Below, piece by piece: positions 250 to 47,774 of a stretch of DNA of 47,790 bases. The notes under the pieces are model-generated. The model was not told where the DNA came from and ran no database searches. It saw only the letters and a list, made by a program, of their open reading frames with translations. Every line of letters starts with the position of its first letter. Within the stretch, counting starts at the first letter, position 1. The position numbers and the translations under genes were made by a program. Source of the stretch: Pseudanabaena sp. (GTDB lineage: Bacteria > Cyanobacteriota > Cyanobacteriia > Pseudanabaenales > Pseudanabaenaceae); contig QBMK01000019.1 of the NCBI GenBank assembly GCA_003249035.1, positions 14,013 through 61,802 of the forward strand, read 5' to 3'.

Positions 250-966
250 ATGGTTACTGCAGCACCTAATACTCAATCCGATACTAGCGCCCGTGACCTA
301 TTTCAGGCGGCTTACGAAAATCGTTATACATGGGACAGCAATTTCCCAGGATTGACTGCCAATGTCTCGGTTGCGATTGATGGCGTAGCCCGTTCTGGTA
401 AGGCTCGCATTAATCCCGACCTAACTGTCGAAGTGAGCATGGACGAGCCAATTCTGATCGATCGCACCACTCGCACTCCCAGCGGTGAAGAAAAGACGGT
501 TTCCGTTGACGAAGGTCAGGAATGGCTATACAACCAACTGCGTGATGTGGTTACGCACCGCAAGCGTAAAACCTTTGAAGAAGCTCATGGCAAATCAGCA
601 TTTAACCTTGGTGCATCCGATGAATCGGGAGCCGTAGAAATTTTAGTTACTGGCGACTCAATGGGCTCGAACTACAAAGTCCGTGGCAAGGAGATATCGA
701 TGGTCAGCCGCGTCATGGGACGGATTGGTTTTGTGATTAATCACCTCGGGCATCTCGATACTGGCGAAGGCTATATTTCTTCGCTCTATACTGCGGTGTT
801 CCGCAATCCGATGAATGATGAAGTTGTGCGTCAGGCTCGTTTTGAAGATGTCTACGAAAAGCTGGGTAATTACTATGTGATGACCAAACAAATCGTTCAG
901 TCTAATGAGCAAGGTCAAACCAAAAACTATGAAATTACCTTTAGTGATATTCAACTACTAGGCTAG
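250..966 (+). CDS. DUF3386 family protein
   Basis: This 238-residue protein matches my memory of the cyanobacterial DUF3386 family, including the opening region around SARDLFQAAYENRYTW and a C-terminal half rich in beta-strand-like segments such as YEITFSDIQLL. There is no signal peptide or membrane segment, so it is probably cytoplasmic. Its molecular function is unknown. It starts at ATG 250 and ends just before a 16-bp hairpin at 972-1012 that probably terminates it, so it looks monocistronic. Family assignment is fairly confident; any role would be a guess. Confidence 0.85.
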   Translation: MVTAAPNTQSDTSARDLFQAAYENRYTWDSNFPGLTANVSVAIDGVARSGKARINPDLTVEVSMDEPILIDRTTRTPSGEEKTVSVDEGQEWLYNQLRDVVTHRKRKTFEEAHGKSAFNLGASDESGAVEILVTGDSMGSNYKVRGKEISMVSRVMGRIGFVINHLGHLDTGEGYISSLYTAVFRNPMNDEVVRQARFEDVYEKLGNYYVMTKQIVQSNEQGQTKNYEITFSDIQLLG

Positions 967-971
967 AGCTC

Positions 972-1012
972 AATCTCACAGAAACCTTGCTTAGTGAGGT
1001 TTCTGTGAGATT
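972..1012 (+). terminator. Hairpin downstream of the DUF3386 gene
   Basis: Bases 972-987 and 997-1012 form a perfect 16-bp stem with a 9-base loop, six bases after the stop codon of the DUF3386 gene. It is followed by TTAAAC rather than a long T run, so it is a reasonable but not textbook terminator. Its right arm ends five bases before ATG 1018, which argues against that ATG as the start of the next gene. Confidence 0.65.
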
Positions 1013-1068
1013 AAACAATGAGATTAAGAGCCTTGCCTGCCAAGTTAATAATAACGTTGAAAACAATT

Positions 1069-1887
1069 ATGCGCGCCGATCTGGAACAATTATTGATTTC
1101 GGAAGCCGAACTGTTGGAATTGACTGGGTTTGATCGGCAGAAAGTTTTGCCATCAATTGAGTTGACCCCACAACAGATCAGGAAGCAACAGGCGATCGCA
1201 TTGGGAATTACAGCGATCAACTTCATCTCGTTTTCCAGTATTTTTTTGCCGCCACTTCGGATAGCGGGAATTATCTTATTGATTAGTCTGACATTGGGGG
1301 CGATGGGTTTAGCGATCGAATTTGCTGAAGTAACTCTTCTTTTCTTTTGCGTGGCTTTAGGGGCAGTTATCTATTCGCTGTATATTTTGTCAGGAGCACC
1401 CTTAGGTATAATCTTGCTATGTCTCGGATTTGCTGTTGCTAGCGGATTTTTGGCTTTATTGCTCACAAAATTAGTTATTCAACAGTGGCGAAAGTCAAAA
1501 AATTCTCACCGACAGAGTGGTGTTCCCAAAGTTATTGTGCGCCTATTTGCAGAAGTTGATAAATGCAATAAGACAGTGCGAGATATTGATGTATTCGATC
1601 GGTTACAAGATGCTGGAAACTCGATCAAATTGGAGTCTAGGGAATCATCGATCGCTGCTTTGAGAATGACACGCAATGACATTGTGCGGGCGTTGAAAAC
1701 TGAACGGATTTTACGAGAAAATCCAGACTTTCATCCCGATCGCTTTGATATTGATTTAAATGCTTTTGAGGCTATTCAAATTAATGAGCGGGCAAAGGAA
1801 TATGGACGTATTTTTGATTCAACCATACAAATAGCGATCGATGTCCAGAAGGCGATGGCTGAATTGCAAGAATCAACCTCATTTTAG
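1069..1887 (+). CDS. Hypothetical membrane protein with four hydrophobic segments
   Basis: From ATG 1069 the product is 272 residues. The open frame extends back to ATG 1018, but that codon sits against a 16-bp hairpin with no room for a ribosome site, so the MRADLEQ start is preferred; neither has a strong Shine-Dalgarno. A cytoplasmic N-terminal stretch is followed by about four hydrophobic helices in the first half, then a charged soluble C-terminal half with heptad-like segments. I do not recognise a characterised family. A conserved cyanobacterial membrane protein is the best description, and MITE copy 1 begins two bases after its stop. Confidence 0.7.
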   Translation: MRADLEQLLISEAELLELTGFDRQKVLPSIELTPQQIRKQQAIALGITAINFISFSSIFLPPLRIAGIILLISLTLGAMGLAIEFAEVTLLFFCVALGAVIYSLYILSGAPLGIILLCLGFAVASGFLALLLTKLVIQQWRKSKNSHRQSGVPKVIVRLFAEVDKCNKTVRDIDVFDRLQDAGNSIKLESRESSIAALRMTRNDIVRALKTERILRENPDFHPDRFDIDLNAFEAIQINERAKEYGRIFDSTIQIAIDVQKAMAELQESTSF

Positions 1888-1889
1888 TT

Positions 1890-1996
1890 TAATCCCAAAT
1901 CACAAAATGGCGTAGCCATTTTGTGATTTTAAAACCCTTACTGGGTTTGGATTTTAATGCCCAAATGTGTGATGACACTTTTGTTAATTGGTATTA
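1890..1996 (+). mobile_element. MITE-like element, copy 1
   Basis: One of four copies of an element of about 107 bp. In order it has a terminal TAAT-CCCAA, a palindrome with 15-bp arms (1897-1911 / 1915-1929) reading CACAAAATGGC outward from the loop GTA, a short AAACCC/GGGTTT hairpin, a second decayed palindrome (AATGTGTGATGACACTTTTG), and terminal TTGGTATTA. Copies lie at 33704-33813 (same strand), 43124-43230 and 47253-47358 (opposite strand). There is no coding capacity, so mobilisation would need a transposase in trans. Confidence 0.8.
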
Positions 1997-2268
1997 TTCA
2001 TTAGCGATCAGCTATCGAGATATTGAAAGAAAGTGCTTATACTTCAGCATCTGTTGATGGTTTCTTTAGGGAGATGCACTGCTTTGCTGCGGCATATCTT
2101 GCTTCTGAGCTTTGGGAACAGTTATAACTTCTCAGGCAGAATTAATCATTCTCTTATTTTCACATCAGGATGGCTTCAGGGAAAAGGTTAATACTGATTT
2201 CAAGACAAAAAGAACTAGTTCATTAATTAGTTCTTTAAGAGAAAAATTCTATATCGAGAGATAAAACC
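1997..2268. other. Non-coding interval upstream of a small exported protein
   Basis: No convincing gene. The only structure noticed is a 9-bp inverted repeat, AAAGAACTA (2209-2217) with TAGTTCTTT (2228-2236), about 30 bases before the next start codon, which could be a leader hairpin. The start codon is preceded by the purine-rich stretch GAGAGATAAAACC. Confidence 0.4.
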
Positions 2269-2622
2269 ATGAAAAAACTACTTCTAGCCTTCTTGCCCGC
2301 ACTCTTGCTCTCTGCAACAGCTGTAGTCCCTGCAGTCAAGGCTCAAGATGCTATGCAAATGCCTACTATAGAAGTAAAAATGAAGATAACTTTGACACCT
2401 TTCAATCTTGCCTATTTGGCTCATCAAGGGTTTCTTGAAAGCCAAGGTATCCCAGATTCTGATGGTCTAATGAAAGGTTTTAACGATGGCTCGATCACTG
2501 CAGCTCAGGTTGTAAAGGCAGCAGTTAACGACAAGCGATTGCCTGCTGCATTCTTGACAAACGATTCTTATATCTCCGCAGTTAAGCAACAGCTATTTCT
2601 CCTTACTCTCGCAGCACGTTAA
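2269..2622 (+). CDS. Small exported hypothetical protein
   Basis: This 117-residue product begins with a clear Sec signal peptide: MKK, a hydrophobic core of about 15 residues, and a probable cleavage near VKAQDA (about residue 25). The mature part is roughly 90 residues with no cysteines and no motif I recognise. An upstream GAGAGAT about 10 bases before ATG 2269 is a plausible ribosome site. It stands alone between two non-coding stretches of more than 350 bases. It is probably periplasmic, with function unknown. Confidence 0.75.
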   Translation: MKKLLLAFLPALLLSATAVVPAVKAQDAMQMPTIEVKMKITLTPFNLAYLAHQGFLESQGIPDSDGLMKGFNDGSITAAQVVKAAVNDKRLPAAFLTNDSYISAVKQQLFLLTLAAR

Positions 2623-2778
2623 GCTTAATTAAGATTTACGAAAGATGCAGAGATTAAGGTGTCCGGCTTTTGATTGATTGATAAGATCGATCTGTGATGA
2701 CAAAGAAATAGTCGGGAATCTATGCATTTATAGTTTTCTTATACTACTCCCATGCCAGTCTAAAAATAGGCGGTAAAG

Positions 2779-2827
2779 CCCAAGAATTAGTGGGGCGGCG
2801 CGGCGCGCCACCCCACTAATTCTTGGG
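2779..2827. repeat. GC-rich hairpin, 17-bp perfect outer stem
   Basis: Bases 2779-2795 and 2811-2827 are perfect reverse complements starting CCCAAGAATTAG. After one mismatch the stem continues five more pairs through CGGCG-type sequence to the loop GGC. The arms begin CCC and end GGG, as in several other hairpins here. There is no T run directly adjacent, so a dispersed repeat is as likely as a terminator. Confidence 0.75.
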
Positions 2828-2843
2828 TGGGAAGGGAGTAACT

Positions 2844-2892
2844 AGAAAAACTTTTAAAAAGCTTGCTTTACATCCATTTTAAAAGTTTTTCT
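2844..2892. repeat. AT-rich inverted repeat, 16-bp arms
   Basis: AGAAAAACTTTTAAAA at 2844-2859 pairs perfectly with its reverse complement at 2877-2892 across a 17-base loop. It lies just after the GC-rich hairpin, upstream of the glycoside hydrolase gene. Role unknown. Confidence 0.65.
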
Positions 2893-3033
2893 GTATGGCT
2901 TACAGTCCTTATAAAGCGTTTCCCATTCTAGTGAAGTACGGGATTGTTTCCCCCATTCTGTACCTTCCGGCTAAAAAACGCTATAAATTGCGCAGACTTC
3001 GTAAAAACAGAAACTATACAGTAAGGATATGTA

Positions 3034-5677
3034 ATGAATCCAGAGCAAGCTAGGCTAGTAGAAACTAGAAATGGGAAACCTTGGAAGCAATGGGGTTCGT
3101 ATCTCAGTGAGCGCCAATGGGGAACTGTTCGTGAAGACTATAGCTCCTCTGGAAATGCTTGGGACTATTTCTCGCACGATCAATCCCGATCGCGTGCCTA
3201 TCGGTGGGGTGAAGACGGCATTGCTGGCATTTCTGATGACCGTCAGTTGCTATGCTTTGCGATCGCACTCTGGAATGGAGCCGATCCAATTATTAAAGAA
3301 AGACTGTTTGGGTTAACTGGTCGCGAAGGCAATCATGCCGAAGATGTGAAGGAGTGCTACTTCTATCTAGATAATACGCCCACGCATTCTTACATGAAAT
3401 ATCTCTACAAGTATCCTCAAGCTGCTTTTCCATACGAACAGTTGATAAATGGAAATAAAAATCGCGATCGCAACGAGCGAGAATTTGAGTTATTGGATAC
3501 GGGAGTATTTGATAGCGATCGCTACTTTGATGTGATGGTTGAATACGCTAAAAATTCCCCTCAGGATATTACGATCCAAATTAGCATTACCAACCACGCG
3601 CCCGACGCACAGACGATCCATCTGCTGCCATCACTATGGTTTCGGAATACTTGGGCTTGGGACAATAGCCAGAAACCCGCACTTAAGGCGCATTCTTTCG
3701 ACATGATTGAGGTAAGTCATGAGCAACTAGGACAAATGTGGCTCCATTGTCCAGAGAGCAAAGAATTACTATTTACCGAAAATGAAACCAACTATCAGCG
3801 TCTTTTTGGAACTGGGAATAGCTCTCAATATGTGAAGGATGGCATCAATGACTATATTGTCAATGGTGAAGCATCGGTAAACCCACAACAACAAGGTACA
3901 AAGGCGGCGGCTCATTATGAGCTAGCGATCGCGGCGAGAGAGACTAAAGTTGTCAGATTGCGATTGAGCGATATTGCACCAGATGTAATTGTTTTGGGAT
4001 CGGAAGCCGAAATCGTGGCAACAAGACTCCTCGAAGCCAATGAGTTTTATCAGCAAATTTCACCGTTTGCGATGTCGGATGATATGCGAAATGTGCAGAG
4101 ACAGGCTTTTGCAGGAATGTTATGGAGTAAGCAGTATTATTAATTACTACCTCGTAAAACCTTGGTTGGAAGGCGATCCAGCTACGTCCACACCGCCAAG
4201 CGATCGCCTTAAGGGTCGCAATGCGCGATGGTTCCATTTAGAATCTGAAGATATTCTTTCGATGCCAGACAAATGGGAATATCCTTGGTTTGCAGCTTGG
4301 GACTTAGCTTTCCATGTGATTCCCATTGCGATGATTGACCCAGATTTTGCTAAGCGACAGCTTGATTTGATTACTCGTGAGTGGTTCATGCATCCAAATG
4401 GGCAAATCCCAGCCTATGAGTGGGATTTTGGCGATGTTAATCCTCCTGTTCATGCGTGGGCGACCTATCGGGTTTATAAGATCGAGCAGAAGATGTATGG
4501 CAAAGGCGATCGCAAATTCTTGGAGCGCGTTTTCCAAAAACTTTTACTAAACTTCACTTGGTGGGTGAATCGAAAAGATCGCAATGGTAGGAATGTCTTT
4601 GAAGGCGGCTTTTTGGGATTGGACAATATTGGCGTGTTCGACCGCAGTGCGGAACTCCCTACAGGCGGCTATATTGAGCAAGCCGATGGGACTAGCTGGA
4701 TGGGTATGTATTGCTTAAACATGCTAACGATCGCCTTAGAACTCGCCAAAGAGAATCATGTTTATGAGGATATTGCTACGAAATTCTTTGAGCATTTTCT
4801 TTACATTGCTGACGCAATGAATAAAGTCGGTGAGAAGCATACGGAGCTTTGGGATGAGGAAGATGGTTTTTACTACGATGTTCTCAATCTACCTACTGGC
4901 AGTCAGTTAAAACTAAAAGTGCGATCGCTTGTTGGGTTGATTCCTCTCTTTGCTGTGCAAACTTTAGATCCCGAACTGCTCGATCAATTGCCTGAGTTCA
5001 AAAATAGGATGCAATGGTTTATAACCCATCATCCAGAGTTAACTCAAAATGTTGCTTGTATGGAAACCTGTGGGATGAGATCTAGGCGCTTACTTGCTAT
5101 CTGCTATCGCGATAAGCTTCAACGCATTCTAGCTAAAATGTTAGATGAGAGTGAATTCTTAGGCGATTATGGCATTCGCGCTTTATCTAAGTTCCATAAA
5201 GAGCATCCCTATATTTGGAAAACAAATGGTAGCGAATATAGAGTTGATTATGAACCTGCGGAATCTTCAAGTAGCCTATTTGGCGGAAATTCTAACTGAC
5301 GGGGCCCAATTTGGATGCCTGTTAATTATTTGATTATCGAATCTTTACAGAAGTTCCACCATTTCTATGGTGAAAGCTTTAAGATTGAGTATCCTACTGG
5401 TTCAGGAAATTTGATGACTTTGAGTGATGTCGCCGCCGAGCTATCCCAACGTTTAATTAATATCTTTGTAAGAGACGAGCATGGCGATCGCGCTGTAAAT
5501 GATTCGCAAAATGGTAAAAAGTCAAGATTCGATACTGATACTAACTGGAAAGATTTAGTGTTGTTCTATGAATATTTTCATGGTGATAATGGCTCAGGGA
5601 TTGGTGCTAGCCATCAAACAGGCTGGACAGGGTTGGTGGCAAAACTAATTCAACAATCAAGCGAATATTCGGATTGA
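3034..5677 (+). pseudogene. Broken MGH1/GH63-like glycoside hydrolase (glucosidase)
   Basis: Three successive open segments read as one protein of about 880 residues of the MGH1-type glycoside hydrolase family, predicted to hydrolyse alpha-glucosides or glucosyl-/mannosylglycerate-like substrates. Segment 1 (3034-4143) holds the N-terminal domain and stops after GMLWSKQYY. Segment 2 resumes one base out of frame near 4135-4150 with [13 protein letters not shown] and carries the catalytic barrel, including [18 protein letters not shown] and [20 protein letters not shown]. It ends at TGA 5297-5299 in GGNSN[15 protein letters not shown], where the family as I recall it has Trp. Segment 3 (5300-5677) finishes the C terminus, with [19 protein letters not shown]. 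Two independent lesions indicate a pseudogene, unless either is a sequencing error. The ORF open from 3989 is only the shifted frame, not a separate start. Confidence 0.88.
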
Positions 5678-28108: not shown

Positions 28109-29155
28109 ATGAGTAATATTTTTTTGCTGCCACCAAACCTTGATAAGAAAGCGCGTTTTGCGGCTTCTTGGGAATATTTGCTAGAAAATATTCAAGAGTT
28201 AGGGCAGGATTTCGTTGACTTTTTAACACAGAGATCGGGTAAGCCAAGTTCAACTTTTATTAAAGCTGTTAGCTATCCTTTCTTTACGTCAGGCATTCAG
28301 CCTGACATACTTTTGGAATGTCAGGATTTTGATGTTATCTGCGATCATCGTTTAGAGAGCGAGTTAAACAAGCTTTCTCTGGACAAATTATTCGTTTTGG
28401 CTAAGTCTCAGCCAAAGAAGTCTTATATAGCAGTGATTAGCAATAGTTATTGCCTAATCGAACCTGAGGTTTTAGCAGGGGAGTCTGCAAAACAGCATTA
28501 TCTCCAACCCTATGATGATATGAATTCATCTATGCCATATTTTTGTTGGCAAGATATATATGCTCTAGTAGCCCAAAAAAAACAACGCATTGCCCATGAG
28601 TTTGCTGAGTATATGCATTTCATGGATATGCAACCTTGGCAGCATAGTGAATGGGGCAATCTGTTTCTTAATCCTGACGTGGCAAAAAGTTTTAGCCAGC
28701 AATGGGAGAAAACAATCAATTATTTTCAGGAAATGGAGATCAATGCGAAACTCACTGGCTACAGTGCGTTAGAGGTTATTTACCCCTTACCTTGGTTGCA
28801 ATTACTCTATATTCACGTATCAAGAACAGTAGCTCATAGTGATTTGCAATCTGTAAGCCCCTATCTTGTCGCAACAATTTGGATTAAGGGAGATGCAAAA
28901 AATCAGATTCAAGCTTTTCATGGCATTTCCGATCGCATTGTGCTTCCTAGTAAAAATGATATTACTGTCGAGATTAGAGCAAGTTTGGCAGATGCTCTTT
29001 GGGCAAGCAAATCTGGTAGCCGCCCCAAACTGGCTGCTACATATTACACATCGCTCGATCGTCTTGTAGCATTAGAGTCTAGGCTGATGCAGCAAAATTT
29101 GATGGCTTTTGCTGAGGCAGTCTTTAACCATGCTAAAGCCATTGGTCAAAGATGA
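28109..29155 (+). CDS. Hypothetical protein, degenerate PD-(D/E)XK nuclease-like
   Basis: The 348-residue protein starts with about 40 helical residues, then SGIQPDILLECQDFDVICDH and RLESELNKLSLDKLFVLAKS, then KKSYIAVISNSYCLI. This order resembles PD-(D/E)XK nuclease-like proteins where PDI supplies the first Asp and E/D-x-K the second motif, with a following helix ending in a strand. Here the second motif reads D79-H-R81, so the catalytic Lys appears replaced by Arg. The remaining 230 residues are not recognised. It is cytoplasmic. It lies between two minus-strand ABC ATPases and 1.2 kb from a NACHT gene. A nuclease-fold regulatory protein is one reading. Confidence 0.6.
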   Translation: MSNIFLLPPNLDKKARFAASWEYLLENIQELGQDFVDFLTQRSGKPSSTFIKAVSYPFFTSGIQPDILLECQDFDVICDHRLESELNKLSLDKLFVLAKSQPKKSYIAVISNSYCLIEPEVLAGESAKQHYLQPYDDMNSSMPYFCWQDIYALVAQKKQRIAHEFAEYMHFMDMQPWQHSEWGNLFLNPDVAKSFSQQWEKTINYFQEMEINAKLTGYSALEVIYPLPWLQLLYIHVSRTVAHSDLQSVSPYLVATIWIKGDAKNQIQAFHGISDRIVLPSKNDITVEIRASLADALWASKSGSRPKLAATYYTSLDRLVALESRLMQQNLMAFAEAVFNHAKAIGQR

Positions 29156-33821: not shown

Positions 33822-36800
33822 TCAGGACTGCTCAACTCCACTAAAGATATCTAATTGAAGAATAGCAGTCTCTTCATTCTCTGGACGGTCGAGGTTCACT
33901 GCTGAAACAGGAGATGCTGTCGTCATAATTTTAGTGCGGCTTTGGGATTTCCAATGAGGATAATGGAGAAGAGGAAAGGATGCGACTTTTTTGGCTAAAG
34001 CCCAGAAGAATACATAGCCAGATAACAAACGCTCAAACGAGCAAAATCTCGACTCTCTGAGCGTTTCAATAAGGTCTATTTCCGTGGAATTTTCGGACTT
34101 AGTTTCCAGTGGGTCGTCCAATTGCTCGAAAATTTGATTCGATACGGTTATGGTCTCGGATGCTCCTTGGCAATGGATCGCTGGATTGGAACTAACCAGA
34201 ACGATCTCTGGACCTACACCCAAATTGCGAATGCCGTTAGCTTGACTTGCTGTCATCAAGACCGCTTTTTCGTCATGTTGCTGCTTGGCACTAAGCTGCC
34301 CATCAGGAGCACCTAAAAATATTAAGGCTCCTCTGACAACTCGGTGACCGAAATGATGCAACATATGATCCTGCGGATTAGCACCGTGAACTTCTAACGA
34401 GGCAATTCCGTAACTGAGAGAAAATAGCTTGCTGACATAGGATTTTAATAGCTGATGAACCCAAGGGGCATCGCCAATTACCAATGTTCTTTTACCTAGT
34501 CGCGCTAAAAGTGGTCTGCCTTGGAGATATCGCAGTCCTAATGCCCAAAACCAAGCACCAAAAATATAAATTGTAATATCAAGCAACGTAATCCAAGGGT
34601 GAAGCAACCGCATAAACAGAGATTCACTCGAAATCTGGAAGGCAAGCGAGAACCAGTGAAACAACACATTGAAGATTGGGATCGTATATCCAAATGGAAT
34701 CGCCCATCCTACGGTGATAAATACATACAGCGCCTGAATACCCCAAGCCAGAGGGGCTTCGGTGACATGGAGCGCCCATTTCTCACCGCTTTGTCGTAAT
34801 TGCTGGTGTAGCGAAGACTGAATTGGGATACCCGAAGAGCTCGTTCCGACTATTTTTGTGACGTTTCGATCGAGAAAGTCATCCTTGAATCGTTCCAGCA
34901 TGAGGAGACTCTCTAGGGTCAATGTCATCCCGAAGGGGTGGGAATTTGGAAAGGTGCGCCGCATCTGTCGGGCTAAATAAAATAGCAACTCTGTTAAGGT
35001 TTGATGATTTGCGGCTGTCGATACTGTGGCAGGCTCGGCTGTCCTGCGCCCACTACCATTGATCAAGATCCTGCGACTAAACTGCTCCTCTCGAAAAGTC
35101 GGTTGCGCTAAAGGGGAACTAATGAAGCTGCTTGGTTCCCCCGTGAGGACAAAAACCTCTCCAATCACTTCTTTGCGGACGAGCAAATCGAAGGCATTCA
35201 GGACTTGCATTGTGGGAAATGTTTGCCCAGATTGGCTGATTGCTAGAACGATCGACTGACTTGCTAACCGCAGGCTCTGAAAGTCGAACTGCAATCGTCT
35301 TAGAACCTGATTGGCAGAGAGAGCCTTAATGGACAGCAGGGGAAACACTGTCTTTAGATCTTGGGCAAATCGTTCCCCCACCCATAAGCTACTCTCTACC
35401 CCAGTGATTAGAATCTCAACTGTCCTCGATACTGCGAGCTGAGGATCTAACCCATTGGCAAGCATCTTCTGTTGCTTGTCTTCAAGGTATTTTGCTTTGA
35501 CAATCAGCAGATTAAGCAGATGTTCGGCACTCTGGCGGTTTAATGATGCAGGATTTATCCATGAATCTTGAATAGTTCTTAACACATGAGGAATTTCATT
35601 GAGGTCAGTTGCGACTGGATCGGGAGATTGTCTTCGAGAATTCTGGATAAAAGGATGGTCTTGAAATATATGCCATCTACTATCAATTTCATCAGGAGTT
35701 AACTCATGTTGCTGGGTCATTGAATAAACCCTCAGGGGTTTATCACTAAGTAGAGCAATTTCTCCAGTATTTTGATTCAAGTCCAAACGCTTTGTATTTG
35801 GACTTGTTGACAAGATCGCGTCTACAGCAGATGGTTCCGAAGCGTAGATTGCATAGTCCTCCTGGTGATTAATCCCGATAGAGATAAGTTGTCCTAGGGA
35901 ACTCAAAACGATCTGATCTGGTTGTAGGGTGGAGACTGTGGCTAATCCGAAGCTGCCCCAAGCACGCTCCATAAAAAGCTGCATCGCATGATATGTATCG
36001 TTGTAAAAAAAAGAATGAATTGCCATGTTGACAAAAGCAGACAATTTATTCTCACCCCAGAGACTCATTTCTTCTTGCCAATCAAAATTCTGCACAACTG
36101 CCTTCTGAAACTTATCCAAAATGTCTGGAACAAAAATCTCTTCTGCCGTTGTCAACGATCTAATAGAAAGTCCAAAAGTCGTTTCAAATATCCTTGCCCA
36201 CTTACTTAACTCTGATTCAGATGGAGCCTGATTCGGAGCATCTTTAGATGGTTCTTGTGCACCAAATGTTTCTTTGTAGGAAGCAATAACTATTTGGTAA
36301 GCCAATCTTACAGAAGCATCCCACATGCCCTGAGTTATAAGTAAATCCATCATTCCAGCAATCTTGGGAGAATCTCCAATGGTGCTATTTGGCGTATGCA
36401 ATACCCTTTCTAGCCACAATCCTAGATTGGTAGTATCAATGGATCTACCAAAGATTTGCCAACTATCAAAGTCGCCATTATGGGTAATGCGATGATTAAC
36501 ATTTTTTTCTTTGGCAATCCACTTTCCGTTTTCAATTTGCCAAACTGTTGCAGTTCTAGCTGGCATCCATTCAAGCCAATGGGTTTCATGCCTCGAAGGA
36601 GGCGCACTGGTTCCGTATCGATAGTGCCACATTCCTAGAATTGTGGATTCTAGGGGTTTGACCCCAGAGGTATTAGCTCGCTGTCTGGCTCGAGCAAAGG
36701 AGATTTCGAGCGATCGCGTTAGATTGCTGCGCTTCTGATTGACGATTTTGTGTCCTATGAAAACAACTTGTTTGGAACGGTTACGACCTACCGTTAGTCC

Positions 36801-37664
36801 GCCTCCTGCTTGCCCACCACGAATCTCAGTTTCCGAACCCATATTCTGAAAGATATCAATGACTCTCTTGGGGAGAAGCACCTGACCATCCTCTAACTGC
36901 CGTTTTCCTATAAAGCCAAAATTCCCGCAGTAAAAGCGATCGGCGATTCCTGTTACGGCAGCCCTCAGATCGGACAAAGAACTTAAGGCAGTTAGAAGAT
37001 TAGCGATCGCAAAGCTTTGCAAAATAAATTTTCCAACAAACCCATCAATCTGTCCATAAATATCGTGAGATTGGGATAAAGTAGATATTCCAAGGAGAAA
37101 GGCAATTAAATTAAACTGCATTCCACCCAATGCTTTAACTCGTATTTTCCCAGCATGGCGATAGCCAACTGCTACCCAAGGATAAGAGTCATTTTGGGCA
37201 AAAGAAACTAAGCCAGAGCTAAATGGAATGAGAGATTTGCCAATTTTGGAGACACTTCTATTCTCTAGAATATTGGCAAAACAAATGAAGGAAAGATTTT
37301 TATCAATAAAAGCAGTTACTAGAACATGACCAAGCCCATGAATGAAAATAGCAGTATTCCAGCACAGTCGAAATAGGAAGGATAGAATCAAAAACAAACA
37401 ACATTGTTGAAGTGGAGTGAATGTTTCTATGTTTGTGAATGCGATCGCAAGAATTACAATTTCAGGTAGGGAATTCTGTAATGTCGTTTTTATTTGAGGG
37501 CGTGCCAAGCAAAAAAGGAGGTCTTTTATGGAGAAGGACACCAGCCTTTGCGAGGTAGTGGTTCTTTTATAGAAATAAACCTTTTGGGCAAATTCATTTA
37601 CAAAGATATTTTTGATTTTTCCAAAATTGTCTTTCAAGAAGTATGCCATTGGGATATAGACCAA
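33822..37664 (-). CDS. Large membrane protein: M50-like, class-II glutaminase and SIS domains
   Basis: The 1280-residue product reads as a fusion. Residues 65-240 are membrane segments resembling an M50 metalloprotease whose zinc motif is HGLGH (109-113, Glu lost), with GGMQFNLIAF (180-189) and ANLLTALSSLSDLRAA near the second motif. Residues 246-660 look like the glutaminase domain of glucosamine-6-phosphate synthase: Cys246 in CGNFGFIG, Arg282 in IRGGQAGG, Arg349 in HYRYGTSAPPS, HNGD (395-398) and Asp410. Residues 750-845 match an SIS sugar-isomerase fold, ITGVESSLWVGERFA and SQSGQT (810-815). Three or four helices (975-1045) precede a Rossmann-like tail. The nucleophile Cys would be N-terminal in ordinary enzymes, so activity would need cleavage; alternatively it is a binding domain. 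Confidence 0.75.
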   Translation of the reverse strand: MVYIPMAYFLKDNFGKIKNIFVNEFAQKVYFYKRTTTSQRLVSFSIKDLLFCLARPQIKTTLQNSLPEIVILAIAFTNIETFTPLQQCCLFLILSFLFRLCWNTAIFIHGLGHVLVTAFIDKNLSFICFANILENRSVSKIGKSLIPFSSGLVSFAQNDSYPWVAVGYRHAGKIRVKALGGMQFNLIAFLLGISTLSQSHDIYGQIDGFVGKFILQSFAIANLLTALSSLSDLRAAVTGIADRFYCGNFGFIGKRQLEDGQVLLPKRVIDIFQNMGSETEIRGGQAGGGLTVGRNRSKQVVFIGHKIVNQKRSNLTRSLEISFARARQRANTSGVKPLESTILGMWHYRYGTSAPPSRHETHWLEWMPARTATVWQIENGKWIAKEKNVNHRITHNGDFDSWQIFGRSIDTTNLGLWLERVLHTPNSTIGDSPKIAGMMDLLITQGMWDASVRLAYQIVIASYKETFGAQEPSKDAPNQAPSESELSKWARIFETTFGLSIRSLTTAEEIFVPDILDKFQKAVVQNFDWQEEMSLWGENKLSAFVNMAIHSFFYNDTYHAMQLFMERAWGSFGLATVSTLQPDQIVLSSLGQLISIGINHQEDYAIYASEPSAVDAILSTSPNTKRLDLNQNTGEIALLSDKPLRVYSMTQQHELTPDEIDSRWHIFQDHPFIQNSRRQSPDPVATDLNEIPHVLRTIQDSWINPASLNRQSAEHLLNLLIVKAKYLEDKQQKMLANGLDPQLAVSRTVEILITGVESSLWVGERFAQDLKTVFPLLSIKALSANQVLRRLQFDFQSLRLASQSIVLAISQSGQTFPTMQVLNAFDLLVRKEVIGEVFVLTGEPSSFISSPLAQPTFREEQFSRRILINGSGRRTAEPATVSTAANHQTLTELLFYLARQMRRTFPNSHPFGMTLTLESLLMLERFKDDFLDRNVTKIVGTSSSGIPIQSSLHQQLRQSGEKWALHVTEAPLAWGIQALYVFITVGWAIPFGYTIPIFNVLFHWFSLAFQISSESLFMRLLHPWITLLDITIYIFGAWFWALGLRYLQGRPLLARLGKRTLVIGDAPWVHQLLKSYVSKLFSLSYGIASLEVHGANPQDHMLHHFGHRVVRGALIFLGAPDGQLSAKQQHDEKAVLMTASQANGIRNLGVGPEIVLVSSNPAIHCQGASETITVSNQIFEQLDDPLETKSENSTEIDLIETLRESRFCSFERLLSGYVFFWALAKKVASFPLLHYPHWKSQSRTKIMTTASPVSAVNLDRPENEETAILQLDIFSGVEQS

Positions 37665-38320: not shown

Positions 38321-41300
38321 ATGGCAGTTGAAATGACAGTTGAAGAGGCGATCGCGATAGCAGAAAAACATCTCAACCGTGGACGACTAACAAGAGTCCA
38401 GGAGATAGTTTTTCGTCAATCTTGGCTAGGACAGACATACTCTGCCATGTCCGTAAACGGAGATTACGATCCCAGCTATGTCAAAGATATTGGCTCGGAA
38501 CTATGGCGATCGCTTTCTAAGGTTTTAGGTGAAAAAGTTACCAAAAATAATTTGTGCCAAGTGCTGGAGCGATTCGCACAGCCCCAAAGAGAAAAGAACT
38601 ATACAAGCTGGGGTGAAGCGACCGATGTTTCTCAATTCTTTGGACGAACTGCTGAATTGGAAACCCTCAGACAATGGGTTTTGCACGATCGCTGTCGCGT
38701 GGTCTTATTACTGGGTATGGGAGGAATTGGTAAAACCTCTCTTTCAGTGAAGCTTGCCGAACAAATACAGGGAGAATTTGATTTTGTGATTTGGCGATCG
38801 ATGCGGCAAGCGCCTTCTTTCCACGAAAAGATGATGAGCTATATCAAAATACTTTCGCATCACCAAGTTACAGCATTACCTCCTGACCACCACGATCAAA
38901 TTACTCTTTTGATTGAGTACCTTCGCAAATCCCGATGCTTACTGATTTTGGATAATTTCGATACGATATTGCAGCAGGGTCAACTGACAGGTAATTACCT
39001 TGAAGGCTATGAACCCTACGGTGAACTCCTAAGGAGATTGGGAGAAACTAGTCATCAAAGCTGCGTCCTTCTCAGCAGTCGGGAAAAATCGTCTGAAATC
39101 GCCGCTCTCGAAGGTGATGATTTGCCAGTTCGCACCCTGACTTTATCTGGATTAGGAGTCGAAGCAGGACAATCAATACTTGCCCTCAAAGGTCTATCAG
39201 GATCTAATCGCGAAACTAGGCAACTAGTAGAGCGCTACGGCGGTAATCCACTAGCCTTAAAAATTGCTGCCACTTCTATTCGCGACATACATGGAGGCAA
39301 GATCGCCCAGTTCCTTGCCGATGGCATAACTGTATTTAATGGTATAAGCAATCTCTTAGAAAAACAATTCCAAAGACTCTCCACATTAGAACAGCGAGTT
39401 ATGTACTGGCTAGCTATAAGTCACGAGAAGATTTCTCTAACGAAGTTGCAATCAGCCTTCCCACAAGAATTGTCTAAGCCCAAACTAATGGAAGTACTAG
39501 AGTCTTTACATTGCAGGAGCTTCATAGAAAACATTACAGGTGGATACACGCAGCAGCCAGTTGTAATGGAATATGTGACAAATCGATTTGTTGAACTAAT
39601 CTGTCTGGAAATAGTCACAGGAGCTCCGCAATATCTGCTGACTCACGCCCTGATGCAAGCCCAAGCAAAGGAATACATCCGCGACAGTCAAATTCATCTA
39701 ATCATGCGACCTATTCTCAATCAACTTCAAATCACGCTCGGCTCCGTTAAGCAGCTAGAGCATAAACTCGGTAGGCTGATTGCAAAGCTCCAAAATGAAA
39801 AGATAGATCCCGTAGGGTACGGCGGCGGAAATCTGCTGAATTTGCTTGCTCAATTAGAAACTGATTTAACAGGATATAACTTTTCGAATCTCACTATTCG
39901 TAGCAGTGATTTACGATCGCTTAAGTTACACCGAGAGAACTTCACTCAAGCCACCTTTCAAGATTGTGTTTTTGCGGCAACCTTTGGCGGCATTACTTGC
40001 GTCGCCTATAGTCCTGATGGGCTTTCACTTGCCATCAGCGATACAAATGGGGAAATTCAGATTTGGGATGTCAGCAATGGCAAACAACTCTTTAGCTGTA
40101 AAGAGCATAACAGTTGGGTCTGGAATATTGCTTTTAGCCCAAAGGCTCCAGTTTTAGCAAGTTGTGGGCAAGATCATACGATCAAACTGTGGGACACTAC
40201 TACTGGAATATGTTTCAAAACCTTGCAGGGACACAAGAGCATTGTCACCGCGATCGATTTTAGCCCTGATGGTCAATTCCTTATTAGTGGTAGCCATGAC
40301 TACACAGTTAAAGTTTGGAATCTAGCCTTAGGAGAATGCGTACAAATTCTGGAAGGACATCATGCATGTGTGTGGAGTGCCGCTTATCATCCCACGGGTC
40401 AAATCATAGGAACGGCAGGAGAAGATAACACTGTCAAGCTATGGAATATAGCAACTGGAAGCTGCGAGCTAACCTTGGAAGGACATCAGCAGTGGGTAAA
40501 AGCGATCGCCTTTAGTCCAGCAGGACAGATACTAGCAAGTGGCAGTTTCGATCAAACTGTGAAGTTGTGGGATTTAAATACTGGCGAATGTTTGAAAACA
40601 TTGCTGGGCCATACAGGAGTTGTGACTTCGTTAGAATTTAATTCCAAGGGCGATCTCCTAGTAAGTGGAAGTTATGACCAAACTATCAAGGTTTGGGATA
40701 CAGAAACAGGAAGATGTCTAGACACGCTTAAAAAGCATACCAATCGAATTTGGTCTGTGGCTTTTGATCCTCAAGGACACTTAGTTGCTAGTGGTGGCGA
40801 TGACAATGCCGCTAGGGTTTGGGAACTCCAAACGGGAAAATGTACGAAAACTTTCCAAGGACATAGCAACGTTATTTATGGAATCGTTCACAACTGGGAG
40901 CAAAACATACTTGCTAGTGGACATGAAGACCAGACAATTAAACTTTGGGATGTAAATCTTAATACCTTGCAAACCTTAAAAACAGACCTACAGCCTTTTC
41001 GGATATTGCATGGACACAGCAACCGTATCTTCTCTGTTGCCTTTAGTCCGAACGACCAATTTCTTGCTAGCGCCAGTGCCGATCGCACCATTAAACTTTG
41101 GAATTTCCATACTGGGCAATGCCTCAGAACCTTCTATGGTCATAACAGTTGGGTCTGGACAGTTGCTTTTAGCCCAGATGGGAACTTTCTTGCTAGCGGA
41201 AGCTACGACCATACCATCAAGATTTGGGATATTCATTCTGGAGAATGTCGTCAAACATTACAAGGTCACCCTAGTTCATTACTGGCGATCGCTTTTTGCT

Positions 41301-41881
41301 CCGATGGAAAAACTCTCTTTAGTAGCGGCTATGAAAAAATCGTTAAATGCTGGGATCTTGAAACAGGCAATTGTCTTCAGACTTGGGAAGCAGATTCCAA
41401 TCGCGTTTGGACAATTTCTTTAAGCCCAGATCGTCAATACATTGCAACTGGAGGAGACGACTCATCAGTAAAACTATGGGATATTCACACAATGGAATGT
41501 CTGCGCATATTCTCTGGTCATACCAGTCAAGTACTCTTTACTCAGTTCACCCCCGATGGCAGTCGCATGATCAGCAGTAGTAGCGATCGCACGATTAAAA
41601 TTTGGAATGTAGCTACTGGAGAATGCCTTGCCACGCTTCAAGGTCATCTCCATTGGGTACAGTCGTTTAGTCTTAGTCCAGACGCTCAAACACTTCTCAG
41701 TGCCAGTTGGGATGAAACAATCAAATGTTGGGATATCGCAACAGGTAAGTGTTATAAAACTTTAAGACCTTCTCGTCCATACGAAGGCATGATTATTAAC
41801 GATGTAAATAACTTAACTGAGGCGGAGATCGGTACTTTAAAAGCTTTGGGAGCAATAGAACAAAAATTGCTCAAGGCTTAA
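38321..41881 (+). CDS. vMAP-HTH / NB-ARC / WD40 STAND protein
   Basis: The 1186-residue protein has three parts. Residues 1-85 resemble the helix-turn-helix domain of vWA-MoxR-associated proteins (VEEAIAIAEKHLNRGRLTRV). Residues 100-450 are an NB-ARC ATPase with Walker A GMGGIGKTS (132-140), Walker B LLILDNFD (207-214), CVLLSSREK and GGNPLALK (307-314). From about residue 560 to 1160 come 14 WD40 repeats ending in WD or WN dipeptides, enough for two seven-bladed propellers. It is a cytoplasmic Apaf-1-like sensor; the ligand and output are unknown, and no effector domain is evident. The last 11 bases overlap convergent cobL. Confidence 0.92.
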   Translation: MAVEMTVEEAIAIAEKHLNRGRLTRVQEIVFRQSWLGQTYSAMSVNGDYDPSYVKDIGSELWRSLSKVLGEKVTKNNLCQVLERFAQPQREKNYTSWGEATDVSQFFGRTAELETLRQWVLHDRCRVVLLLGMGGIGKTSLSVKLAEQIQGEFDFVIWRSMRQAPSFHEKMMSYIKILSHHQVTALPPDHHDQITLLIEYLRKSRCLLILDNFDTILQQGQLTGNYLEGYEPYGELLRRLGETSHQSCVLLSSREKSSEIAALEGDDLPVRTLTLSGLGVEAGQSILALKGLSGSNRETRQLVERYGGNPLALKIAATSIRDIHGGKIAQFLADGITVFNGISNLLEKQFQRLSTLEQRVMYWLAISHEKISLTKLQSAFPQELSKPKLMEVLESLHCRSFIENITGGYTQQPVVMEYVTNRFVELICLEIVTGAPQYLLTHALMQAQAKEYIRDSQIHLIMRPILNQLQITLGSVKQLEHKLGRLIAKLQNEKIDPVGYGGGNLLNLLAQLETDLTGYNFSNLTIRSSDLRSLKLHRENFTQATFQDCVFAATFGGITCVAYSPDGLSLAISDTNGEIQIWDVSNGKQLFSCKEHNSWVWNIAFSPKAPVLASCGQDHTIKLWDTTTGICFKTLQGHKSIVTAIDFSPDGQFLISGSHDYTVKVWNLALGECVQILEGHHACVWSAAYHPTGQIIGTAGEDNTVKLWNIATGSCELTLEGHQQWVKAIAFSPAGQILASGSFDQTVKLWDLNTGECLKTLLGHTGVVTSLEFNSKGDLLVSGSYDQTIKVWDTETGRCLDTLKKHTNRIWSVAFDPQGHLVASGGDDNAARVWELQTGKCTKTFQGHSNVIYGIVHNWEQNILASGHEDQTIKLWDVNLNTLQTLKTDLQPFRILHGHSNRIFSVAFSPNDQFLASASADRTIKLWNFHTGQCLRTFYGHNSWVWTVAFSPDGNFLASGSYDHTIKIWDIHSGECRQTLQGHPSSLLAIAFCSDGKTLFSSGYEKIVKCWDLETGNCLQTWEADSNRVWTISLSPDRQYIATGGDDSSVKLWDIHTMECLRIFSGHTSQVLFTQFTPDGSRMISSSSDRTIKIWNVATGECLATLQGHLHWVQSFSLSPDAQTLLSASWDETIKCWDIATGKCYKTLRPSRPYEGMIINDVNNLTEAEIGTLKALGAIEQKLLKA

Positions 41882-46748: not shown

Positions 46749-47162
46749 TTAAGATTCCGACTTTCTAGCACTTGCTCTTGCTAATATGACCCCGATTTGG
46801 ATGCCAATCATGCCAGCGATCGCACTGCCAACAAGATAGAAGAACAGCGCTGCGATATCGCCATTTTCTAAGAAATCTCTTGATTCCAAGCTATAGGTTG
46901 AGAATGTAGTATAAGCACCGCAGAAACCTGTTGTAGTCATCAGTCGGATTTCAGGAGAAATGATCCGAATATTCTCGACTGCTACAGTAAGGATATAAGC
47001 GATTAATACGCAGCCAGACACATTAACAAAGAATGTGCCATAAAACTCAAACCCCTTCCCAAAAATAACTTTCACACCTTCGCCGACATAAAAACGGGTC
47101 AGTGCCCCAAAAATTCCTCCAATCGCTACTGCAAGAGAAAACTTGCCCTTCAAAAAATCCAT
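46749..47162 (-). CDS. crcB: Fluoride channel CrcB/FluC, copy 1
   Basis: The 137-residue protein has four hydrophobic helices and Fluc motifs: GGIFGALTRFYVGE, the pore Asn in FFVNVSGC, and GFCGAYTTFSTYSLE, which contains the Phe-box and the TTFST stretch. Fluc exports fluoride across the plasma membrane as an antiparallel dimer. A second, related gene lies upstream on the same strand at 47385, so the two may form a heterodimer or two homodimers. MITE copy 4 separates them. No fluoride riboswitch was found in the 222-base gap. Confidence 0.93.
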   Translation of the reverse strand: MDFLKGKFSLAVAIGGIFGALTRFYVGEGVKVIFGKGFEFYGTFFVNVSGCVLIAYILTVAVENIRIISPEIRLMTTTGFCGAYTTFSTYSLESRDFLENGDIAALFFYLVGSAIAGMIGIQIGVILARASARKSES

Positions 47163-47384: not shown

Positions 47385-47774
47385 CTACTTCACAAAAAAT
47401 TTGGCGATCGCTACACCTAATAGCACTGCGACTATGCCTAAAATTGCACTTCCAGCCCAATAGAAAGCTGTTGCTGTCGCTTGCTTGTTCCGCCATAGAG
47501 TGAGAGTCTCAAACCCATAGGTAGAGAACGTGGTAAAAGAACCTAAAAATCCCGTTCTAATTAGTAAATCTAATTCGGTAGGATAGCCTGTAATTCCTTT
47601 TGAAATCGCAAAAAAGAATCCCATCGCTAAGCATCCAGTTAAATTAATTCCAAATGTTGCATAGGGAAACTTATTGCCAAATTTAGCTTTTATCCATTCT
47701 GTAATGTAAAAACGAGACAATGCTCCAGGGACTGCACCTGAAGCGATCGCGAAAACGTTAGTTATATCTGACAT
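47385..47774 (-). CDS. crcB: Fluoride channel CrcB/FluC, copy 2
   Basis: The 129-residue four-helix protein shows AVPGALSRFYITE, FGINLTGCLAMGF with the pore Asn, and GFLGSFTTFSTYGFET, the Fluc filter segment. It differs enough from the neighbouring copy to suggest paralogues rather than a recent duplication. The start ATG 47774 is 16 bases from the window end, so any upstream riboswitch or promoter is outside view. It is upstream of the other crcB on the same strand. Confidence 0.93.
   Translation of the reverse strand: MSDITNVFAIASGAVPGALSRFYITEWIKAKFGNKFPYATFGINLTGCLAMGFFFAISKGITGYPTELDLLIRTGFLGSFTTFSTYGFETLTLWRNKQATATAFYWAGSAILGIVAVLLGVAIAKFFVK

Follow-up and report, generated by a model that had tools for sequence, protein, structure and literature searches.

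GltB, a class II amidotransferase, is made with a propeptide of a few tens of residues that is cut off. In enzymes of the N-terminal nucleophile (Ntn) type, a cysteine serving as the nucleophile can act only at the N-terminus, and the precursors of such enzymes are known to cleave themselves (as set out in part of PMC9140057). We describe here a relative of the amidotransferase GlmS in which this cysteine, Cys246, lies behind an entire membrane domain. It is encoded in a window of 47,790 nucleotides from Pseudanabaena sp. (the whole stretch of DNA analysed: contig QBMK01000019.1 of assembly GCA_003249035.1, positions 14,013 to 61,802 of the forward strand), by an open reading frame (ORF) of 1280 residues at 33822..37664 on the minus strand, where all features of the protein given below by window position are also located; the genome, of 4.55 Mb, carries this ORF once. 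Because the first methionine of the nearest relative (L002) falls at about residue 45 of the window protein, the TTG start and the first ~45 codons are doubtful. A preliminary description, made from the letters of the window and a list of its ORFs, had placed HGLGH at 109-113, Cys246 in CGNFGFIG, Arg349, HNGD at 395-398, and SQSGQT at 810-815, where we also find them, and had read a GlmS-type glutaminase and SIS domain downstream of a protease-like membrane domain, a reading that our comparisons support. We conclude that the protein, real and rare, represents a coherent new variant among GlmS-like amidotransferases, and its evolution gives good support to the view that the chain would be cut so as to leave Cys246 N-terminal.

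The relatives provide the evidence for such a cut. Cys246 (36927..36929), the putative nucleophile, is kept in 21/21 scorable rows, and it occurs in two architectures: a tree of 21 cores (leaving out the broken copy G048/L008, the 5′-truncated L027, and duplicate retrievals of genes already included, but retaining L013, which is 745 residues long and near a contig end) contains 14 long proteins with a membrane front and 7 short ones beginning MCGNFG (L005, G066, G161, G197, G276, and two in G115, a genome with one long copy as well). In every one of the 7 short relatives, the first ATG, GTG, or TTG of the open frame is the codon directly before the cysteine, so that cysteine is codon 2, as expected of class II glutaminases with their N-terminal cysteine. 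Methionine aminopeptidase should strip off an initiator methionine that stands in front of cysteine, and each loss of the front domain would therefore give an N-terminal cysteine. No start codon precedes the cysteine directly in any of the 14 long forms; a start-like codon is found 9-12 codons before it in 6 of them (12 upstream codons were inspected), and none of these would place the cysteine second.

The short forms are interspersed among the long ones in the core tree, requiring 4 changes of architecture, at least 3 of which are forced by well-supported branches. The approximately unbiased (AU) test rejects a single short clade (p-AU 7.45e-71); in the derived clade, the four long rows likewise fail to group as one clade (p-AU 0.012). 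Since only long forms make up the deepest clades, and since a tree of the front domain, in which 6 of 11 inner branches are left open, has four starred groups that are all concordant with the core tree, repeated loss of the membrane domain is the simplest history; repeated gain would have the same domain join the same residue several times, which is far less likely. The membrane domain was thus probably lost several times, each loss leaving Met-Cys. A search for free-standing front domains found none among 13 matches in 388 genomes; an apparent example of 198 residues in G223 is a gene cut by contig ends.

The reading we prefer, with a probability of about 0.47, is that the long form is a membrane-anchored GlmS-like amidotransferase, made as an inactive precursor in which a site-2-protease-like membrane domain would serve as an unusually long pseudoprotease propeptide; that cleavage would take place between residues 245 and 246, with the Ntn cysteine as its most likely agent, and would expose Cys246 as the N-terminal nucleophile; that the mature glutaminase would then release ammonia from glutamine for transfer to a phosphosugar held by the SIS domain; and that, in the topology we infer, the cleaved, mature enzyme would stay at the membrane by means of a C-terminal hairpin. 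Given Met-Cys in 7/7 short relatives and no start codon at the preceding position in 14/14 long ones, the cut would fall between 245 and 246; the recurrence of Met-Cys argues strongly, if indirectly, for Cys246 acting as an N-terminal nucleophile in a long form most likely cut by itself, autoproteolysis being the simpler route because Ntn precursors self-cleave. The preliminary description had suggested that the protease-like region, or another protease, might release Cys246: the need for release is borne out by seven Met-Cys relatives that do not form one clade, but release by the protease-like region through normal metalloprotease chemistry is unlikely, because the catalytic glutamate is always glycine.

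The enzymatic half of the protein begins with a class II glutaminase-like domain reaching from residue 246 to ~675 (35640..36929, the right border being approximate). When the 1280-residue protein is searched singly, no Pfam family matches, and NCBIfam returns GlmS models only, all below threshold (TIGR01135 scores 13.3 bits against a curated cut-off of 418.05), while a PDB sequence search with the same protein yields at most weak GlmS matches; across the family the matches are weak but recurrent, with PRK00331 in 21/22 cores (best E 1.3e-7) and TIGR01135 in 20/22 (best E 9.8e-7). We also compared the family with a GlmS profile built from 15 of 18 canonical cyanobacterial GlmS loci, three having been dropped by the start-motif pattern; the E-values given here refer to one comparison each. 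The glutaminase matches at 96.2 percent in its second half (E 2.3e-9), residues ~557-824 of the window protein are collinear with GlmS 151-375 at 83.9 percent (E 7.7e-6), and the first 215 glutaminase residues match at 25.9 percent (E 7.3e-4; hhalign, L033 left out), with cysteine on cysteine and Arg349 on the arginine of GIGHTRWATHG. These comparisons and the NCBIfam matches together support homology to GlmS in the domain order first proposed.

Arg349 (36618..36620) thus falls at what we take to be the position of GlmS Arg73, and HNGD (395-398; 36471..36482) stands, by motif and unaligned by hhalign, at the position of GlmS Asn98-Gly99. Arg349, His395, Asn396, Asp398, and Asp431 are each present in 21/22 relatives and the glycine of HNGD in 22/22, and because they are conserved across relatives these residues are not chance matches. 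The conservation expected beforehand therefore holds for Cys246, Arg349, and Asn396, but fails for Asp410, which is found in 8/22 relatives and replaced by glutamate in 10. Asp431, in the GDSP motif (36372..36374) within GDSPKIAGMMDLL, appears to be a better candidate than Asp410 for the counterpart of GlmS Asp123 (presumably so numbered in E. coli), a correspondence read from the motif in a place that hhalign left unaligned.

The next domain, at residues ~678-917 (34914..35633), is, by the fold of its predicted model and more weakly by its profile, an SIS (phosphosugar-binding) domain with a conserved phosphate-binding loop, SQSGQT (810-815; 35220..35237), in which Ser812 and Gly813 are kept in 21/21 scorable rows and Gln811 in 19/21. 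It is among the better parts of the model, and a Foldseek search of the PDB puts human GFAT-1 first (E 6.9e-5). VIA-align of the SIS part likewise has human GFAT-1 first (Z 15.3, 196 residues aligned, 3.5 A). Behind it come numerous phosphosugar isomerases and SIS regulators, the best 50 matches listed spanning Z 12.5-15.3. The Pfam SIS family (PF01380) is found in 2/13 members listed with a best E of 0.052, which is no clear match. Beyond the SIS domain, a Kyte-Doolittle scan finds two hydrophobic stretches at 971-998 and 1024-1044, a likely transmembrane hairpin (971-1044; 34533..34754), and the aligned region is found in the short forms too.

The membrane domain in front of the cysteine (residues 60-245; 36930..37487) is shared by 15 members, all of which have HGxGH (HGLGH 109-113 in the window protein; 37326..37340), Asp121, Glu134, Lys177, Gly181, Asn185, Asp232, and Gly239. 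The position of the catalytic glutamate in HExxH is Gly110 in 15/15, as the preliminary description had noted for the window protein, and the domain would for this reason be a pseudoprotease. Asp232 (36969..36971), a candidate third metal ligand, is placed exactly 14 residues ahead of Cys246 in 15/15, without insertion or deletion. The front domain is under purifying selection that looks looser than that on the glutaminase, the ratio of nonsynonymous to synonymous substitution rates (dN/dS) being 0.24-0.36 for the former versus 0.07-0.25 for the latter in four pairs, most of them with dS near saturation.

Relatives were seen only in cyanobacteria; phyla beyond these were covered solely by a peptide-pattern scan of the genome collection, which picks up close relatives and found 7 loci. 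Draws from the class gave carriers in 7/194 genomes and then in 18/388, one of the 18 (G048) having a broken copy, and a draw from the phylum (386 genomes overlapping the class draw) gave three: the window's own genome, G048, and G302. A nineteenth match in the class, in G019, was dropped, its locus being an ordinary GlmS. The distribution appears patchy, because none of the other members of the window's own genus among the class-draw genomes listed carries the gene. A canonical GlmS over the cut-off is present in 18/18 carriers, so the family protein is probably not their housekeeping GlmS. Searches of plasmids and of PADLOC gave no match to the protein, PDB sequence profile searches with the family gave one chance-level match each, and no published account of the family was found in a literature search outside which most subscription journals lie. 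Two side observations concern relatives of GlmS in these genomes. Separate ORFs in G276 (C147), G282 (C481), and G048 (C77) match GlmS over its isomerase half alone (profile ~234-604), with a canonical GlmS elsewhere in the genome. In the broken copy of G048 (L008 5641-7646 / L120 6635-8622), the middle of the core directly follows what by eye appears to be the beginning of a Tll0287-like sensor kinase, and the frame is broken at a later point; it looks as if the intervening stretch had been deleted.

Several results weigh against the self-cleaving amidotransferase we propose. For the enzymatic half, the predicted full model (residues 81-1280) is poor overall, with a predicted local distance difference test score (pLDDT) of 40.9, so that only its SIS part was used, and its Foldseek match to GFAT-1 has template-modelling (TM) scores of just 0.14 and 0.24. 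By sequence profile alone, the first SIS half matches GlmS weakly (7.6 percent, E 0.0046), and a longer comparison of the first part with GlmS yields just 13.4 percent (E 0.0021). The second SIS half of GlmS is not recognised by profile in the C-terminus (E 0.26), where residues 1058-1280 (33825..34493) form a conserved region; the "Rossmann-like tail" of the preliminary description is thus unsupported, and the catalytic lysine of the GlmS C-terminal tail was not identified in the family protein. One long form, L033/G302 (817-4551), keeps the front domain and the cysteine but has changed Arg349, His395, Asn396, Asp398, and Asp431; since it retains only the cysteine of this set, the cysteine can persist without the remaining glutaminase residues, and we regard the protein as a naturally occurring glutaminase that is probably dead. 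It had been stated beforehand that homologues without the Arg/Asn/Asp set would speak against a buried glutaminase: this is the one such case among 22 relatives, its cysteine is kept, and the other 21 retain the set. The tree by itself cannot separate loss of the front domain from gain; and residue 245, on the near side of the proposed cut, is variable (Tyr in 10, Asn in 4, and His in 1 of 15).

The origin of the front domain is open to similar objections. No Pfam M50 match was found in the 15 members at E up to 10 with filters on, and hhalign comparisons with the host M50 groups gave 1.4, 0.4, and 17 percent, unrelated controls giving 0.2 and 2.7. A predicted model of residues 60-262 (pLDDT 68; predicted TM score, pTM, 0.68) found nothing in the PDB at E 0.001 by Foldseek, with ferritins and receptors on top, nor anything at E 0.001 in a viral fold library, and a site-2 protease is absent from both Foldseek lists (best 50 matches listed in each), appearing only upon VIA re-alignment. 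There, among the 867 best chains, the site-2 protease mjS2P (3b4r) is nominally first (Z 6.6, 121 residues aligned, 4.5 A). The VIA rule counts this as a tie with a flagellar stator protein (5.9) and with ferroportin (5.8), and the score is in the chance range for helical bundles. The 3b4r chain has HELGH at 54-58 and Asp148 as read in its sequence, and the ends of the alignment range (model 181 on chain 156) would place Asp232 on this Asp148 if the alignment is ungapped there. Because the HGxGH motif had pointed to the site-2 family beforehand, we consider it likely, though not proven, that the front domain descends from site-2 proteases.

The same N-terminal cysteine could also be produced by another protease, for example an intact site-2 protease of the host or a rhomboid acting upon a signal, in which case the pseudoprotease would be a docking or recognition module. 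The evolutionary case for a required N-terminal cysteine is the same for this explanation, and the host genome has four places matching Peptidase_M50, three of them over the cut-off; moreover, a site-2 protease is required for stress acclimation in Synechocystis (as far as covered by part of PMC4284730), and pseudoproteases related to the site-2 family exist, EGY3 among them (likewise from part of PMC9355673). We nonetheless consider an external protease rather unlikely, as it requires a second player: M50 proteins are present in 9/9 other carriers tested, but nothing was seen linking them to the gene. We also doubt that the long form stays uncut and acts instead as a non-catalytic sensor, whose glutaminase fold with its buried cysteine would bind glutamine or a phosphosugar and signal through the membrane domain. 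The gene does lie beside kinase and response-regulator genes in several relatives, a STAND-like WD40 gene adjoins the family gene at three loci, and G302 retains the architecture without the glutaminase residues; however, the arginine, asparagine, and aspartate are kept in 21/22 relatives and the cysteine in 21/21, and the repeated re-creation of Met-Cys makes little sense if the cysteine need not be N-terminal.

It would be more surprising still if the membrane domain were a working metalloprotease that cuts its own C-terminal junction by means of an unusual general base. His109, His113, and Asp232 are invariant in 15/15 and the junction lies at a fixed distance of 14 residues, but glycine occupies the catalytic glutamate position in all 15, and the other invariant glutamate checked, Glu134, comes 21 residues after the motif; we find this very improbable. 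Hardly credible is an artefact of annotation, in which two separate genes are read together by chance or through an assembly error. Short forms without the front part do exist; against this, 14/15 front domains are in frame with a core, the remaining one (G223) reads into the cysteine motif at a contig edge, and both the constant spacing and the purifying selection in the pairs tested speak for a single gene.

In the window, the family gene is flanked by a convergent ROK-family gene and by a divergent gene for a WD40-repeat protein with a P-loop region (38321-41881, plus strand), which we read as STAND-type; a NACHT protein is encoded further on. WD40-repeat, STAND-like genes with the same N-terminal domain are also found at L106 12431-15997, L114 779-4411, and L109 12835-14139: such a homologue adjoins the family member in G115, is separated from it by one small ORF in G263, and, in a shorter version, lies ~6 kb off in G066, making 4/24 neighbourhoods scanned (window included, G223 counted as two); the window genome, G115, and G263 are distant from one another. 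The N-terminal domain of this protein has 5, 6, and 5 matches in three genomes counted, which were chosen after the adjacency had been seen, so that no probability is claimed. In the derived clade the family gene is part of an operon-like array. Pfam confirms a Tll0287-like hybrid kinase, a kinase-ParA fusion, and a SulP-STAS-cNMP protein as neighbours in G115 and an RsbRD-STAS protein in G282, and similar neighbours elsewhere (e.g., G161, G197, G276, and G207) were recognised by eye; these kinase and STAS-type neighbours suggest a signalling context. A speculative extension of the self-cleavage model, which we would not press, is that a retired intramembrane protease now serves as a regulated propeptide keeping the GlmS-like enzyme at the membrane as a zymogen, and that a signal from the membrane or from a STAND or two-component system permits self-cleavage and local transfer of ammonia to a sugar phosphate. 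Elsewhere in the window, two adjacent CrcB-family genes (46752-47162 and 47388-47774, minus strand) possibly encode a two-subunit fluoride channel, and an ORF of 348 residues without a Pfam match (28109-29152, plus strand) lies between what by eye appear to be two ABC-transporter ATPase genes.

If the reading we prefer is true, a membrane pseudoprotease propeptide would join the known ways in which Ntn enzymes are activated, and carriers would have, next to the housekeeping enzyme, a GlmS relative bound to the membrane; with its natural long and short forms, the family lends itself readily to testing whether an Ntn cysteine has to be released. Among known systems, GlmS/GFAT (TIGR01135) is closest in its order of glutaminase and then SIS, in its cysteine, arginine, Asn-Gly, and SQSG loop, and in GFAT-1 being the best structural match of the model. 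The family protein differs by its membrane front (in the long form), by insertions in the glutaminase, by a hydrophobic hairpin after the first SIS domain, by a second SIS half and C-terminal GlmS tail that are not recognised, and by a score far under the cut-off. Site-2 proteases and other M50 proteins, EGY3 included, resemble the front domain in having HxxxH in a predicted helix and a later conserved aspartate, with 3b4r as the nominal best structural match; here, glycine replaces the glutamate in 15/15, Pfam M50 does not match, and the domain fronts an enzyme. Acid ceramidase (cut at Cys143) and NAAA (Cys126) also have a long segment before the Ntn cysteine and undergo self-proteolysis (as described in part of PMC9140057). 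They belong to another Ntn family and are lysosomal. In neither enzyme do we know of a front part that is a membrane pseudoprotease. PurF/GPAT likewise has residues before its Ntn cysteine that are removed autocatalytically, but its propeptides, in the same part of PMC9140057, are a few residues long, whereas about 200-245 residues of membrane domain precede the cysteine here.

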